Shown: one piece after another, positions 6,747 through 28,808 of the stretch
How positions within the stretch are numbered: the first letter of the stretch is position 1
How the letters are laid out: each line of letters opens with the position of its first letter
DNA from: a virus
Length of the DNA: 39,884 nucleotides
Virus record (IMG/VR): IMGVR_UViG_3300027881_000036
Coordinates: 1-39,884 of that record
Reading direction: 5' to 3' (one strand)
The notes under the pieces: model-generated
What the model saw: only the letters and a program-made list of their open reading frames with translations
Told to the model about the DNA's origin: nothing
Databases searched by the model: none
Translations under genes and position numbers: made by a program

Positions 6747-7472
6747 ATGGCAGTACCTGCAAGTGGAGTATTAGATTGGTATTCTTTAGCTCAAGAATGT
6801 TATTTAGGAACATACGGTAGCGGAACAATTACTGGTTGTATAGCTATAAAAGAAATGGTTATAGGCGGACAACCCTGTAGTGGAGCTTTTACTTATCCTG
6901 CAGTAAGTGGAAATTCTCCTCCTCCTGACTCAAGCACACCTTATGCGGCAGATGAATTTTATAGTTATGATAAAGATTATGTTGCTTTATCATCTAAGAG
7001 AGTTTATACTACAAGTGTTCCAAAACCCGTATTTGCGTGTAGTCAAACTACAACAACAGTCTGGTATTTTCCAGATTCAACACCAGCAGTAAATGATCAA
7101 GTATATACAAACAGTGGAGGAACAACAACTCCAAGTGCTGGAAATTATGGGTATTGTGCAGCGTGTTTAGGTAATGGTTCTACAGATTATAGGTTTACAG
7201 TTAATAGTAGCGGTGTTATAACCGCGGTAGCATCATGTTCTCCGAGCGATAGAAGACTGAAGAAAAATATAAGATTAATAGGATATTCTGTTACAGGATT
7301 AAAAATATATACTTTTGAGTATTTAGACAAGGTATTTGGCGAGGGAGTTTTCCAAGGTGTAATGTCTGATGAAATACCAAGCTATGCGGTTATAAAGAAT
7401 GGGGTTGGTGAGTATGATGGAGTTGATTATTCCAAAATAGATGTAGACTTTAAAAGAATATATTTCGCATGA
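6747..7472 (+). CDS. Short adhesin with Cys module and minimal S74 chaperone domain
   Basis: This 241-residue protein has three parts. The N-terminus (1-97) is Cys-containing and unrecognised. Residues 98-164 form a Cys-bounded module (W-Y-F, DQVYTNSGGTT, YRFTVNSSGVI, ending in Cys164) that recurs in two tail proteins further along. The C-terminus is a short S74-type chaperone starting at Ser167-Asp-Arg-Arg-Leu-Lys172-Lys-Asn-Ile, with the usual Ser/Lys spacing. Self-cleavage before Ser167 would leave the module at the mature C-terminus. It starts 3 bp after the giant fibre in an AATTATGGC context, and its last codons overlap the next gene (ATGA). It is probably a second, smaller receptor-binding or fibre-tip protein. 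Confidence 0.8.
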   Translation: MAVPASGVLDWYSLAQECYLGTYGSGTITGCIAIKEMVIGGQPCSGAFTYPAVSGNSPPPDSSTPYAADEFYSYDKDYVALSSKRVYTTSVPKPVFACSQTTTTVWYFPDSTPAVNDQVYTNSGGTTTPSAGNYGYCAACLGNGSTDYRFTVNSSGVITAVASCSPSDRRLKKNIRLIGYSVTGLKIYTFEYLDKVFGEGVFQGVMSDEIPSYAVIKNGVGEYDGVDYSKIDVDFKRIYFA

Positions 7473-21867: not shown

Positions 21868-24800
21868 ATGGCGATAACTACTACTAATTTTATTTTAGGA
21901 CGGATGAATAAATCCGTTGACGAAAGACTTCTTCCTAAAGGAGAATACATGGATGCCATGAATGTTCGTTTAGGTGCTACTGAAACCACTGAAATGGGGG
22001 CGGTAGAAAATTCTAAAGGCAACGATCAGCTAACTACTTTACAATTTAGAGGATCAAATCTTAGTGCTAATGCTACATGTATTGGTGCGTATGATGATGG
22101 TGCAAACGAAACAATGTACTGGTTTGTTCATGACCCTGTTAATCCTGCTGTTGGAAAAATAGTAGATTTAATTGTTTCTTATAACACTAATACAGCAACT
22201 CTACGTTACCATGTTATTACTTTGTTTACATTAAATTTTGATCCTGAATATTTAATTACAGGAGTAAATAAAATAGAAGACTTATTATTTTGGACAGATG
22301 ATAAAAACCCTCCACGTAGAATTAATGTAAATTCTGCTTATTTAGAACCTACTGATCCAGGAAATGTAGATCAAACTGTTCCTGAAGATTTAAATGTTAT
22401 TGTAAAACCCCCTGGATACGAGGATGTTGTGGGGGGAAGTGTACCACTACCTGCTCCTACTTTTGAATTAGCTTCTGTTCCTGGTGGAGAAAATTATATA
22501 GAAAATAAATTCGTATCCTTTGCATACAGATATAGATATGCAAATAATGAGTATAGTGCTACATCGTTATTTACTAATCCCGCATTTCAGCCCAGTGCTT
22601 TTAATTTCTCAGTTAGGGAATATAATAATGAAGGGATGCAAAACAAATATAATGCAGTAAATGTTACATTTAGCACGGGAAGTAAGCGTGTAGAAGAAAT
22701 AGATTTATTGTATAAAGATTCTAATACTGCAAGTATATATGTAATTGAAAATTTCAAAAAAGCTGATTATGGATGGGCAAATAATTCCACTCAGACCTAT
22801 ACCTTTACTAATAGTAAAATTTATTCTGTTTTAGGAAGTGATGAATTATTAAGATTATATGATAATGTTCCTCATGTAGCGAAAGCTCAAACGATGATGG
22901 GCAATCGTTTAATGTATGGAAATTATACTGATGGGTTTAATATAACCAATGTAAATGATCAGAGAATTGCTGTGGATTTTAATACTGCATTAACTACAAA
23001 ATATATAGCATTTTTAGAATTAACAACTCCTACATTAAGTAATGGCACTTCTTATACTATTGATCCCAATAATACAATAGCTGCTACTAATAGCGTTATA
23101 AATTTTGATTTAACTGAAATTGCAGATAAATTAAAAAAAGGATCTTCCCTTACTTTAGATTTTGAATTTGAGCATATGACATTAAGCGGCACAACTGCGC
23201 AAAGTTGTTATATAGATAATGTAGACTTTAAAACTGCTAATTTTGAACTTCAGATATTTATAACCTTAGAATCTGATTTTAATTCTGTATTAGATTTTGC
23301 TAATAGCTCACAGTTTGCTTCTGCTATAGGGACTATATTAAACACAAATTTTAATCCTATTGCTACTGCGGCAGATGGAACATCTTTAACAGATAAATTT
23401 AATGCTTCTCTTGTTCCTCCTGCTATTACCTGTACTTTTACTAAAACTAATAGTAGTATTACGGATGCTACTGCTCAACAAGGATTTACAATAAGTGCTG
23501 CAGGCAATATTATTTCTATTCAAACTATTGCAATGAAATATAGTAGTGTGACTGGCCCAACAGATATGTATGAGTATTTTAGATTTGGTGCTGGTGAAGC
23601 AATTTTTAGTACTGATGCTGATGTATCTTCTCTGCATAGTAATAGAGATTTTGAAACAGGAATAGTTTATTTAGATGAATACGCCAGAGCCTCTCAAGTA
23701 TTGGTGTCAGAGTATAACACTATTTATGTTCCTCCAGCAAATAGCACTACTCAAAATCGTATTAAAGCCACCATACAAAGTTATGCCCCCTCTTGGGCAA
23801 AGAAATATAAATTTGTAGTAAAACCAAGTAAGGGAGGATATGAGACTATTTTTTGTAATTTCTATTATGTACGCCCTTCCGATAATATGACCTTTTTTAA
23901 ATTAGAAGGAGACAATCAAAATAAAGTAAAGACAGGAGATAGATTGATAGTTAAAACTGATGTAGCAGGCCCATTACCTAATTTAGTAAGAACTACTGTT
24001 TTAGGAGTTGGTGCGGAAGCGCGAGATTTTTTAACAGATGCTGAGGAAGTAGGTTTAGATGAAAAGCAATTAGCTGGATTATATATGCAAGTAAAGGTGG
24101 CTAATTTTAGTATTGAAATAGCTGAGGATTCTGTAATAGATCATGGAGAATATACTTATAGCTCAAGGACGCGCCAAGAATGTCAGCCTAATGTAAGTTA
24201 TCCTGCTGTAACATGGACATGCGATACTACTGGAGGAGGTACAGCCACTACTCCTGTGGTTTATGATGTACCATCAGGCTCTATTATTGATATAAAAGTT
24301 AGAATAAGCAGAAATGAAAGAGGCAAAAAATGTGATGGATATGACTGGGAATGGAATCAAAGCTTTACCGCTCAAGCTGATTATACAAATCTTAGAGATT
24401 GGTGGGTAAGCGATAATATTAATCCTGCTTTAGCTTCTCCTGGAGCTTTAGACGGCGGTGATTGGCAAGGTGTTTATGATGATACAATATATCAATCTAC
24501 ATCTGCATTTTCTGGAGGTTGTTCTACACCAGGAAATCAAAAAGCGGGAAACATGGTATGTAGTGCTTGTACTTCAGCTTCCTGCGCGATATTTGCATGG
24601 GTTGCTGATGATCCTGCCGATCTTACTCAACCTTTTTATTTAGGTATAAAAACCAATAGAAAAGGATGTAGAAATCCTAATGGAAGAAAGGTAAGAATAT
24701 CAGCAGAAATCGTAGTAACTCGTGCAGCACAAATGGTTGTTTTTGAGACAGAGCCAGCAGATGCTAATTCAGAATTGTATTATGATGCTTCAGAGGCTTT

Positions 24801-26676
24801 AGATGTAACTTATAATCCAGGTACAGGCAGCGGATTTCATCAAGCTGCAGGGGGAGCTGACGATCAAAACCAAACCGCATCAGTTCCAGCAGTGGTTGTA
24901 TTGCCATTTATGGATTGTTATACGTTTTCTAATGGAGTAGAGAGTTATAAAATAAATGACAGGTTAGCAGGAAAATCTGTAGTAATGGGACAACGAACCT
25001 TATCTGTTTCTGATGATGAAGCTACGGAGATGGATAGATTTGCAGATATAACATATAGTGGAGTATATAGTAGTAATGCAGGAGTAAATAATCTTAATGA
25101 ATTTAATTTAGGGTTAGCTAATTGGAAAGAATTAGAAAATAGCTTTGGTCAAATACAATTATTGCATGCTCGTGAAACCGATATATTAGCAATACAAGAA
25201 GATAAAGTGAGTTATGTATTAGCTTCTAAAAATTTAATTAGTGATGCCGCAGGAGGGGGAACAATAACTACATCACCTACTATATTAGGAACTCAAATTG
25301 CACGTATAGAAGAATATGGAATAAGTTATAATCCTGAAAGTTTTGCGGCCTATGGAAAAAACTTCTATTTTACAGACACTAAAAGATTAGCGGTAATAAA
25401 GTTAACTGGAGGTGGACAAAATGAAACATTAGAGATTATCTCTGATACAGGGATGAGAAGCTGGTTTAGAGATCAATATATAACCCAACAAAATACACAG
25501 AAATTAGGAGGTTATGATCCATATATGGATGAATATGTGTTAGGAACAAACGATATTAGCGTTCCTGTTCCTCCTGTTATTTTACAGTGTGGTGTAAGTA
25601 TAACTCAAGCATCTTGCACGGACACAAAATCATTTACTATTGAGGTAGGTTCTACTATTGGAGATGCCACTGTAAACTATACCATTTCAGGAGGAAATGC
25701 TATTATTAATGCAACTTGGAACGCTATTGCAACATCTTCGGGAGTAGTAACTGGAAGTGGTAGTTTTACTTGGAGTAAGACAGCTCAGACTCCAACTACT
25801 GCAACTATCACCGTATACCCACAAGGTGGTGCTTCCATAAATTATGACATAACTCCTGATTGTATTGACGAGGTTACAATTACTGTAATAAAATGTGTAA
25901 TCAATTCAGGAAGTGATAGCGGTGACACGATTCATGCAGAATATCAATGGAGTGATTCCACAGCTATTAGCCCTACTGATTCAAGTTCAGCACAATTTGG
26001 AAGTGATTCTACTATTTTTAGTTTATATGAATCACAAACAGGAATTAGATCACAAGGTGTATTTCCTTATAATGGTGCTAATTTAAAAATGACTTCTAAT
26101 AAAATTAATTATGATAATTATGATTGGGCATATCCAAATGATAATTTTAGATTTTTATCTTCTAATACCTTATACCAAAATAATGCAGCAAATGTGTCTA
26201 CTCTTTTAGGATTAGCCAGTACTATTCCTGATGCTATGGTAACTAATCCTGCAGCAGGACAATTTACAGCTACAGTAACTACAGCCACTACTCCTGCATT
26301 TACTTTACCAACAAATAATCAATACTTATATTTGATATATGATTATAGAACAACGTCCGCTTCTCAATTATGTTATAATTCCACATTAACTGGAGCGTGT
26401 TGTGAGTGTACTTGGACGTGTACGAGCTTTAGCTGTAGCCAACAAAGATCTACTTCTGCAAGTGCTTGTCAACAAACACTAACAGAAACCTATTATCATA
26501 ATGGATCTGCAGCATTACCTGCGGTTTATGATTTGGTATATAGTAATAGTGATTGTGCGGGTACTAATGTAAAAACTAATGTTGTATATTTAAGTGCAGG
26601 TTATTATAAAATGAGTGCAACTCAATATATGAGAGTAAATAGTTATGGTGTGGTAATTGAAATAAACACCTGTTAA
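21868..26676 (+). CDS. Large tail-hub/ring protein (P22 gp10- or T7 gp12-like role)
   Basis: The 1602-residue protein starts with FILGRMNKSVDERLLPKGE and DAMNVRLG, a beta-propeller-like signature of tail hub or stabiliser proteins in environmental podoviruses. Further marks are LLFWTDDKNPPRRINVN (about 140-157) and GYDPYMDEYVLGTN (about 1212-1225). Family proteins normally continue into a GW-(P/V)SF domain; here that domain is a separate gene at 28038. Instead the C-terminus (from about 1230) has Ig-like Thr/Ser-rich sequence and a Cys-rich segment (Cys1511, 1512, 1514, 1518, 1523, 1534), then a Cys-bounded module with VYDLVYSN, LSAGYYKMS and RVNSYGVVIEI, ending at Cys1602. It probably forms the tail hub, with an exposed C-terminus. 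Confidence 0.8.
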   Translation: MAITTTNFILGRMNKSVDERLLPKGEYMDAMNVRLGATETTEMGAVENSKGNDQLTTLQFRGSNLSANATCIGAYDDGANETMYWFVHDPVNPAVGKIVDLIVSYNTNTATLRYHVITLFTLNFDPEYLITGVNKIEDLLFWTDDKNPPRRINVNSAYLEPTDPGNVDQTVPEDLNVIVKPPGYEDVVGGSVPLPAPTFELASVPGGENYIENKFVSFAYRYRYANNEYSATSLFTNPAFQPSAFNFSVREYNNEGMQNKYNAVNVTFSTGSKRVEEIDLLYKDSNTASIYVIENFKKADYGWANNSTQTYTFTNSKIYSVLGSDELLRLYDNVPHVAKAQTMMGNRLMYGNYTDGFNITNVNDQRIAVDFNTALTTKYIAFLELTTPTLSNGTSYTIDPNNTIAATNSVINFDLTEIADKLKKGSSLTLDFEFEHMTLSGTTAQSCYIDNVDFKTANFELQIFITLESDFNSVLDFANSSQFASAIGTILNTNFNPIATAADGTSLTDKFNASLVPPAITCTFTKTNSSITDATAQQGFTISAAGNIISIQTIAMKYSSVTGPTDMYEYFRFGAGEAIFSTDADVSSLHSNRDFETGIVYLDEYARASQVLVSEYNTIYVPPANSTTQNRIKATIQSYAPSWAKKYKFVVKPSKGGYETIFCNFYYVRPSDNMTFFKLEGDNQNKVKTGDRLIVKTDVAGPLPNLVRTTVLGVGAEARDFLTDAEEVGLDEKQLAGLYMQVKVANFSIEIAEDSVIDHGEYTYSSRTRQECQPNVSYPAVTWTCDTTGGGTATTPVVYDVPSGSIIDIKVRISRNERGKKCDGYDWEWNQSFTAQADYTNLRDWWVSDNINPALASPGALDGGDWQGVYDDTIYQSTSAFSGGCSTPGNQKAGNMVCSACTSASCAIFAWVADDPADLTQPFYLGIKTNRKGCRNPNGRKVRISAEIVVTRAAQMVVFETEPADANSELYYDASEALDVTYNPGTGSGFHQAAGGADDQNQTASVPAVVVLPFMDCYTFSNGVESYKINDRLAGKSVVMGQRTLSVSDDEATEMDRFADITYSGVYSSNAGVNNLNEFNLGLANWKELENSFGQIQLLHARETDILAIQEDKVSYVLASKNLISDAAGGGTITTSPTILGTQIARIEEYGISYNPESFAAYGKNFYFTDTKRLAVIKLTGGGQNETLEIISDTGMRSWFRDQYITQQNTQKLGGYDPYMDEYVLGTNDISVPVPPVILQCGVSITQASCTDTKSFTIEVGSTIGDATVNYTISGGNAIINATWNAIATSSGVVTGSGSFTWSKTAQTPTTATITVYPQGGASINYDITPDCIDEVTITVIKCVINSGSDSGDTIHAEYQWSDSTAISPTDSSSAQFGSDSTIFSLYESQTGIRSQGVFPYNGANLKMTSNKINYDNYDWAYPNDNFRFLSSNTLYQNNAANVSTLLGLASTIPDAMVTNPAAGQFTATVTTATTPAFTLPTNNQYLYLIYDYRTTSASQLCYNSTLTGACCECTWTCTSFSCSQQRSTSASACQQTLTETYYHNGSAALPAVYDLVYSNSDCAGTNVKTNVVYLSAGYYKMSATQYMRVNSYGVVIEINTC

Positions 26677-26686
26677 ATAAAAAATT

Positions 26687-28024
26687 ATGGCAAGTATAGG
26701 AACATATTATTTTGATGGTCAAAGTTTTGCGAACGCTTCGGCTATATATACTGATGCAGCTTTAACAACTTTAGCTCCTGATGGTTATTATTCTCAAGGA
26801 GGAATTGTGCGTCAACAGCTTAATGGAGTGTTGCTTAATGCAAATGATTGTACTGAGTGTTATGTGGCTTGTGGATCAGGTATTTCTGCATCTATTTCTC
26901 AAAATGGGGTATTTAATGCGGATATAGATATGGCCAATTCTGTAGGTGCGATAGTAGCGTATTTTTATATGACAACCTCTATACCTGATGGGGTCGTGGC
27001 TACATATAATGCGGTAAACTATAATCGATTAACAGCAAAAAACAATCATAATGGTGTTGTTTTAAGAGACGGATCTCTTTCTATTGTTGATTATGCGGGT
27101 ATCGGAAATCAAGGAACAGGAAAACCTACTTATGTAGGTAATCAAAATACTGGGTTAGTGGGTAGTTCACCATATAATAGTGTTACAGCTGCGTGTCCCA
27201 CTGAAGGAGGTCGACCAGAAAATTATAATTATGTAAATTCGGCTTACGTGGCCTTAGGCACATATACACCCACAACAGTAAGCAATGCACAGGTTGGTTT
27301 TGCGACAGACAACGTAACTCCAGCTTTAAATAGTCCTGTATTTACTATGGTTATTCCTAAAACCCTAACAACACCTACCCCTGTTAATGTTACTATATCT
27401 GCGCCAATGTGTAGCACAGCATTTAATTGGGAAATAGCTTGTCCTGCGGCCTTACCAAGTTTTAGCGGAACAGCGCTTCAAGCTACTGCAGCCTGTGGTT
27501 TTGCTATTACAACGTATTATTTTGTTAGAAACGCGACAGGGACAACACTCCCTTTTACTAAAGATACTAATGCTATACCAGAAATAGGAAACTTTGTGTT
27601 TACCGATGTTAATGGTACAACATATTTAAATGACACTGTGACTTTACAATATGTGGTTGTTAATAATGCTACAGCAATAGGAATACGAAACGGAGTAGTA
27701 GTTTCTTCTGCGGCTTGTACGGGAAGTAATCCACCAACCAATGAATTTTATGTAAACACTACCACTATGGCAGCTTGTAATACCTGGTGTGATGGAACAA
27801 ATAGAACTATATCTGTACCAAAATCAACTACAAGTGATCATGTCTATTCAAGTGTAATAGAAGGTGACTATATTTATGGTAGTCTTTTAGGTGCAGGATT
27901 TTATGCTTATGCAGCAACAAGCACAGATACTGATGCAGGAAGCTTCACTATTATGGAGTTAGATTCTGCTAATCAAGTAGTAGCAAGATATCAATGTACT
28001 GGAGCAAATTGTGTAATATTATAA
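26687..28024 (+). CDS. Cys-module virion protein (putative tail-surface protein)
   Basis: The 445 residues contain several copies of the same Cys-bounded module. The N-terminus (about 1-60) has TYYFDGQSFANASAIYTDA and APDGYYSQGG. The middle copy (Cys270-Cys344) has TTYYFVRNATGTT, GNFVFTDVNGTTY and IRNGVVVSSAAC. The last copy (about 354-437) has FYVNTTTMAACNTWC, GAGFYAYA and NQVVARYQC. An unrelated beta segment (TVSNAQVGF ... VTISAPMC) lies between. No catalytic motif is visible. It sits between the two parts of what is normally one tail-hub polypeptide, so it is probably attached to the tail. The start context is AATTATGGC. Confidence 0.75.
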   Translation: MASIGTYYFDGQSFANASAIYTDAALTTLAPDGYYSQGGIVRQQLNGVLLNANDCTECYVACGSGISASISQNGVFNADIDMANSVGAIVAYFYMTTSIPDGVVATYNAVNYNRLTAKNNHNGVVLRDGSLSIVDYAGIGNQGTGKPTYVGNQNTGLVGSSPYNSVTAACPTEGGRPENYNYVNSAYVALGTYTPTTVSNAQVGFATDNVTPALNSPVFTMVIPKTLTTPTPVNVTISAPMCSTAFNWEIACPAALPSFSGTALQATAACGFAITTYYFVRNATGTTLPFTKDTNAIPEIGNFVFTDVNGTTYLNDTVTLQYVVVNNATAIGIRNGVVVSSAACTGSNPPTNEFYVNTTTMAACNTWCDGTNRTISVPKSTTSDHVYSSVIEGDYIYGSLLGAGFYAYAATSTDTDAGSFTIMELDSANQVVARYQCTGANCVIL

Positions 28025-28037
28025 AAAATAAAAAATT

Positions 28038-28808
28038 ATGGCAAGTCACACTTTAACATATAATGATAATGCGGTAGGATGGCCTTCGTTTTATAGTTAT
28101 CATCCTGAATTTATTAGAGGTATGAATACTTATTTATATACTTTTAGTGGAGGAAATTTATGGAGACATAATACTAATGATAATAGGAATGAATATTATG
28201 GAGTAGCAGGAAACTTAGCTCCATCTACAATTACCAGTGTATTTAATCCTGAGCCTACGTTAAGCATTAAGCTTTTTAAAACTTTATCTTATGAAAGCAA
28301 TGCTGCCTGGGATTGTACAGCTTTAACATCTGACTTGAGTCAAGGAAATGTAGATACCATCTATTTTGAACAGAAAGAAGGGGAATGGTTTTCTTATGTA
28401 AGACATGATGACGGGGTAACAGATTTTACATTAAGATATACTAATGGTATTTCGACATGTACTGTAGCAGGCCCCGCTAATGCTACGGTCTGTACGTTTA
28501 CGGTAGATGTGGGTCATGTAGTTACTATAGGGGCGGTTGCTTATACATTGGTAAATAATGCAGCGCCTGTGTTAGCTGGAACTATAGATGCGATAGATAG
28601 AAATGCTAATACCATTACTATTGATACGACTACTCCTGGAGGAGCAACTGCGCCAGTTAATGGAGACTTTATTATGTATACTAATAATACGGTTGCTGAA
28701 TCTTATGGAATGAGAGGATATTATATGGAATTTACTTTAAGCAACAACGATACTACAGCTGTCGAGTTATTTTCAGTAGGTAGTAGTGTGATGAAAAGTT
28801 ATCCATAG
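28038..28808 (+). CDS. Detached C-terminal domain of the tail-hub protein family
   Basis: The 256 residues carry GWPSFYSYHPEFIRGMN, LYTFSGGNLWRHN, STITSVFNPEPTL and IKLFKT, and end in ESYGMRGYYMEFTLSN and VELFSVGSSVMKSYP. In related hub proteins, as I recall them, these segments follow the GYDPYxDEYVL segment in one polypeptide. Here they form a separate gene, 1.36 kb after the 1602-aa gene, which ends in other sequence. Residues about 143-228 form an inserted beta domain (VVTIGAVAYTLV, GDFIMYTNN). It starts in a clean AATTATGGC context. It probably assembles with the hub protein in trans. Confidence 0.75.
   Translation: MASHTLTYNDNAVGWPSFYSYHPEFIRGMNTYLYTFSGGNLWRHNTNDNRNEYYGVAGNLAPSTITSVFNPEPTLSIKLFKTLSYESNAAWDCTALTSDLSQGNVDTIYFEQKEGEWFSYVRHDDGVTDFTLRYTNGISTCTVAGPANATVCTFTVDVGHVVTIGAVAYTLVNNAAPVLAGTIDAIDRNANTITIDTTTPGGATAPVNGDFIMYTNNTVAESYGMRGYYMEFTLSNNDTTAVELFSVGSSVMKSYP

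Follow-up and report, generated by a model that had tools for sequence, protein, structure and literature searches.

The muzzle of crassviruses is a hexameric gate at the tip of the tail, the term “tail hub” being applied to other proteins, THA and THB (PMC10172136). The muzzle is highly conserved among these viruses, and its length varies through insertions in the crass and IG2 regions (PMC10172136), which lie away from the cuts described here. It was a single chain in every true crassvirus read (crAss001, cr108, phi14:2, cr1_1 and cr109), and the muzzle of Flavobacterium FpV4 is also single-chain. Full-text searches covering papers outside subscription journals yielded no account of a muzzle or nozzle in split form, and a two-chain muzzle has apparently not been described before.

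The window, meaning the whole stretch of DNA analysed here, is a viral record of 39,884 bases (IMGVR_UViG_3300027881_000036) in which the terminase, portal and other virion genes precede a run of tail genes. Three ORFs on the plus strand are considered: A (21868-26676, 1602 aa), B (26687-28024, 445 aa) and C (28038-28808, 256 aa). The nearest named relatives belong to Pachyviridae, Pervagoviridae and Elemovirus, all three of which are placed outside Crassvirales in their records; the phages with a two-chain muzzle form a large marine and freshwater group, kin of the gut crassviruses. A first-pass annotation of the window had described A and C as the parts of a tail-hub protein split by the insertion of display genes into a single ancestral gene. 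The split affects the crassvirus muzzle and not a tail-hub protein.

The core of A (residues 1-1226; 21868-25545, plus strand) includes the ring-joining start, the propeller blades and the IG/crass-type insertions, and runs up to the motif GYDPYMDEYVL, where the muzzle match ends and where the first-pass annotation had already seen the protein leave its family. A matches phrog_14478 (E 5e-236), and its core is colinear with the single-chain proteins of phi38:1, elemo and Gundel. A did not reach PF25731 (crAss_MUZ); the A protein of the relative L071 obtained 35.8 bits (cut-off 27), and the two A proteins align lengthwise to one A profile. The missing segment had been assigned to the separate gene at 28038, and C does match PF25729 (crAss_MUZ_C; 38.6 bits, cut-off 27), together with phrog_38031 (E 5e-49) and phrog_18548. 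On the basis of PF25729 and the gp44 alignment given below, the first part of C (residues 1-137; 28038-28448, plus strand) completes the propeller hairpin and the last blades; the second part (residues 138-256; 28449-28805, plus strand) comprises a small beta-barrel and the terminal strands. C is not a duplicate, because the A proteins of split loci contain no match to it. The starts of B and C are identical over 21 bases (26675-26695 and 28026-28046; AAATAAAAAATTATGGCAAGT), probably through a common A-rich leader and chance; a duplication scar was considered and rejected, as the match is missing from relatives and A-rich leaders are frequent in the window.

The space between the two muzzle parts was originally said to hold a Cys-rich extension of A and a Cys-module protein. 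The Cys-module gene, B, does lie there, but the extension of A consists mainly of two beta-rich domains (25546-26400, plus strand), and closes with a single Cys module of 90 aa (residues 1512-1602; 26401-26673, plus strand; module profile E 1e-26). It sits exactly at the expected turn of the propeller hairpin. The extension profile was found in the A proteins of Baltivirus phi13:2 (E 2e-36), L091 (1e-36) and MW202828 (2e-58), and was absent from single-chain loci and from those of the second split lineage (break 2, see below). The extensions of the window clade and of Baltivirus are homologous, over 260 aa. The Cys module ending A recurs in many B proteins, in one to five copies, and as a single copy in another window gene (6747-7472), which matches phage structural and tail-fibre families. 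The product of this last gene is tail-fibre-like, its Cys module (residues 89-164) being followed by an SDRRLKKNI-type end similar to the intramolecular chaperones found in tail fibres.

The equivalents of A and C form one chain in three cultured groups, represented by phi38:1 (1324 aa; host Cellulophaga), elemoF (1493 aa; Flavobacterium) and Gundel_1 (1386 aa; Tenacibaculum), and likewise in locus L111, so the proposed homology to single-chain forms held on alignment. The regions matched by A and C are 3 residues apart in phi38:1-like proteins and 16 apart in elemo proteins; in the analysed segment of L111, the A profile extends to residue 508 and is followed from residue 513 by the C profile (408 and 255 bits, respectively). 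Judged by sequence, the continuity of A and C in these homologues is far beyond chance. On crAss001 gp44, the A profile aligns to residues 28-160 and 1049-1168, before the C-profile match at 1202-1289, a sequence match limited to ~90 residues; the break is therefore located between positions 1168 and 1202 of gp44. In a structural model of L111, it corresponds to a turn of 4 residues separating two predicted strands, the confidence of the model being low (mean pLDDT 60.9, with 63-68 for the hairpin blocks). The top PDB match of this model was nevertheless 7qok_A (Foldseek E 1.9e-8), with 7qol at 5e-8 and other phage tail structures thereafter, and the comparison with 7qok gave a VIA Z of 9.7 over gp44 residues 1025-1371, spanning the break site. 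The muzzle was not found among PDB sequences by phmmer (A, C) or with the C profile, because it is too distant in sequence; the link was provided by the fold and the gp44 profile alignment.

C is an ORF of its own (251-282 aa) in all 80 of the nearest loci, in three of which A lies beyond the retrieved stretch, indicating that the split is old. Among the 147 loci with both parts, a count that takes in near-copies and records duplicated across two collections, 116 are split as in the window (break 1), 12 are split elsewhere and 19 are single, although five of the rows scored as single (L099, L100, L103, L160 and L161) show the first part of C only. Bohxovirus, a candidate for a multiply split muzzle, was left out of these counts because its numerous short ORFs hint at recoding of stop codons. 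Two contigs, IMGVR_UViG_3300030101_004148 (105 kb; L020 and L055) and IMGVR_UViG_3300046002_004363 (99.6 kb; L116 and L117), each carry two distinct muzzle loci that share an orientation and lie ~60-65 kb apart, as if two phage genomes of ~60 kb had been joined.

The first-pass annotation supposed that both parts are kept functional. Both are kept in every split locus in which both are visible, and the identities of A and C correlate (Spearman 0.82, 36 loci). In Baltivirus phi13:2, phi19:3 and phi18:3 and in Bacelvirus phi46:3, the two genes are separate and only 3 bases apart. For phi18:3, gp114 (A) and gp115 (C) are both listed in the record as detected experimentally by MS/MS, and both halves are therefore virion proteins in an isolate. 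It is extremely improbable that the split is artefactual or that frameshifting, an intron or an intein restores a single protein. Splits in single contigs can in general be assembly errors, and nothing specific to that effect was found here; the 116 split loci come from many samples and include isolated phages, and the MS/MS proteins of phi18:3 are annotated separately. A and C have independent start codons, and the frame of C relative to A is 0, +1 and +2 in 23, 15 and 17 non-redundant split loci, respectively; with all three frames occupied, the split is not a frameshift artefact. Within the window, no Rfam family, intron or other RNA, reached the gathering score, and no intein was present among the Pfam matches.

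Phylogenetic trees were estimated from a profile alignment of the muzzle. Several branches around the split clade have single-chain muzzles, and fission is favoured over fusion, with the single-chain state ancestral by outgroup, because crAss001, cr1_1, cr109, Fpv4 and the solved T7 and SU10 nozzles are all single-chain. An ancestral two-gene form, with the single chains produced by fusion, would fit the majority of split loci (116/147), and the A extension common to the window clade and Baltivirus could reflect one early split, with later fusions in phi38:1, Gundel and elemo. It is nonetheless improbable, given the uniformly single-chain state of the true crassviruses read and of Fpv4, the single chains of the T7, SU10 and Pa223 nozzles, whose solved structures were matched by the L111 model, and the scatter of single-chain forms around the split clade. 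Separate coding of the two parts throughout the close relatives, which the first-pass annotation held to count against an ancestral single gene, was indeed observed (80/80), but the wider tree still has single-chain outgroups. An ancestral single gene thus remains favoured, but gene insertion is not required for the split: no gene lies between the parts in Baltivirus (gap of 0-4 bases), in L130 and L134 (4-6 bases) or in most of L136-L147.

Break 1 takes at least two changes on these trees. A single break-1 group was recovered in 0 of 200 bootstrap trees, and the AU test of such a group gave a borderline p value of 0.0485 (LG+G4). One origin of break 1, Baltivirus included, is still a substantial possibility, if somewhat short of even: the homologous A extension (260 aa) of these phages and the window clade speaks for it, but the common domain could also have been passed from one lineage to another.

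The muzzle has also been cut at a second position. In 12 loci, A is continuous with the first ~145 positions of C in one very long protein (1488-3099 aa); the remaining ~100 positions of C are encoded on their own, by a gene of 107-144 aa (35-62 bits). This second break lies near a “QGIG”-type motif, before the small beta-barrel, at the point at which the second part of C begins in the window. Its gap contains one or two genes (276-1131 aa). The 12 loci form one clade in the trees, and break 2 is an independent second split, at a different loop.

B begins with a conserved N-terminal domain (residues 1-68; 26687-26890, plus strand; profile E 5e-34), followed by a beta-sandwich domain (26891-27439, plus strand; AlphaFold2 model of B, mean pLDDT 87.8) and by a Cys module (residues 252-344; E 1e-14) with a variable C-terminus (27440-28021, plus strand). 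One or more genes with a B-type N-terminus of 60-68 aa lie between A and C in 87 of the 116 break-1 loci; four loci have three such genes in the gap, and in five (L071-L074 and L079) the N-terminal piece is the whole gene (58 aa). Behind the N-terminus and beta-sandwich, B-type proteins carry 0-5 copies of the Cys module (~85 aa). Their length and module number differ between close relatives, the length even where A is ≥85% identical, and the part behind the N-terminus is less conserved than A and C at every distance. No reverse transcriptase of a diversity-generating element was found within the window. The model of B matches uncharacterised viral proteins (Foldseek, E down to 6e-25), and no PDB entry was matched under E 0.001 (best E 0.012). 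Its middle part comes closest to widespread beta-sandwich folds, among them the binding domains of collagenases; the match to the ColG collagen-binding domain is middling (VIA Z 7.1, rmsd 2.4, 93 residues).

From its position, modularity and variability, we infer that B is a tail-tip adhesin. B could instead be unrelated cargo, a moron or soluble factor housed in a tolerant intergenic site and not part of the muzzle tip, as the clear enzymes (glycosyltransferases and 2OG-Fe(II) oxygenases) in the same gap of some relatives and the lack of a PDB fold match to a known tail protein might suggest. We consider this rather unlikely, as an N-terminus of 58-68 aa, kept in 87/116 break-1 loci and sometimes forming the whole gene, fits a docking part, and the Cys module is common to B, the C-terminus of A and the tail-fibre-like gene. 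The gap between the muzzle genes has become a landing site for fast-changing proteins, predicted to lie on the surface and probably to bind receptors.

The gaps of L092, L094, L124, L127, L129 and L131-L133 (e.g. L129:2270-8231) contain enzymes of sugar transfer and hydroxylation, including a 2OG-Fe(II) oxygenase (PF13640), a GlcNAc transferase (PF11397), PF04488 sugar transferases, an epimerase and PIG-L. One gap gene matches the hydroxyproline O-arabinosyltransferase family PF23452 (28.8 bits versus 23.9), and the adjoining tail proteins bear Pro/Thr/Ser-rich stalks. Enzymes and stalks together look like a hydroxyproline glycosylation cassette for the phage tail; no paper on such a cassette was found. 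In L148 (5871-8411), a gap gene overlaps the end of A and has a weak match to the BACON domain (18.2 bits, cut-off 25).

Continuous homology, the position of the cut between predicted strands, the single-chain outgroups and the co-inheritance of A and C lead us to consider it likely that A and C are the two chains of one hexameric tail-tip muzzle, produced by an old fission in the turn of a propeller beta-hairpin, and that the gap serves as a port for the A extension and the adhesin B. An old single muzzle gene would have been cut in this turn. C would pair in trans with the edge strand of A, closing the propeller and the ring-joining region, and the gate would work as usual despite the break in the chain. 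The free chain ends at the hairpin may have provided a permissive port, at which the C-terminus of A grew its beta-rich and Cys-module domains. The gene for B, in the same operon slot, would combine a fixed N-terminus for attachment to the virion with a variable Cys-module tip. Displayed at the tail tip, the A extension and B would contact the host, providing a receptor-contacting surface replaceable without disturbance to the gate. Whether crassvirus-type muzzles in general are repeatedly broken in trans at tolerant loops of the gate (at least two sites), with the breaks acting as ports for exchangeable tip proteins and the gate and a fast adhesin evolving apart, is a proposal to which we give even weight.

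A muzzle cut at two loops reveals tolerated cut points in a phage gate, and split muzzles constitute natural experiments on how this gate holds together. Isolates with split muzzles exist (phi18:3 and phi13:2), so assembly in trans is directly testable. B suggests that marine relatives of flavophages have a class of tail-tip surface proteins not recognised so far.

Of the described systems, gp44 of phicrAss001 (7QOK/7QOL; PMC10172136) resembles the window proteins in the order of its parts, with profile matches on both halves, in its fold, matched via a single-chain relative, and in its similar neighbourhood by synteny, with a ring-like protein upstream and cargo-type genes downstream. However, gp44 is one chain of 1371 aa, whereas the last blades and ring-joining end are encoded by a separate gene in the window, where A has also acquired a Cys-ended extension. 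The muzzle homologues of phi38:1, elemo and Tenacibaculum Gundel_1 can be aligned with the window proteins over nearly their full length, but are single chains, with neither the extension nor the gap gene. The nozzles of T7 (gp12), SU10 and Pa223, beta-propeller tail-tip gates found among the fold matches of the L111 model, are single chains without the crass/IG region (general knowledge and PMC10172136). The Baltivirus pair phi13:2 and phi18:3 has the same hairpin cut, a homologous A extension and, as established by MS/MS for phi18:3, both parts in the virion; unlike the window, it has no gene between A and C, and its two proteins are annotated merely as separate structural proteins.
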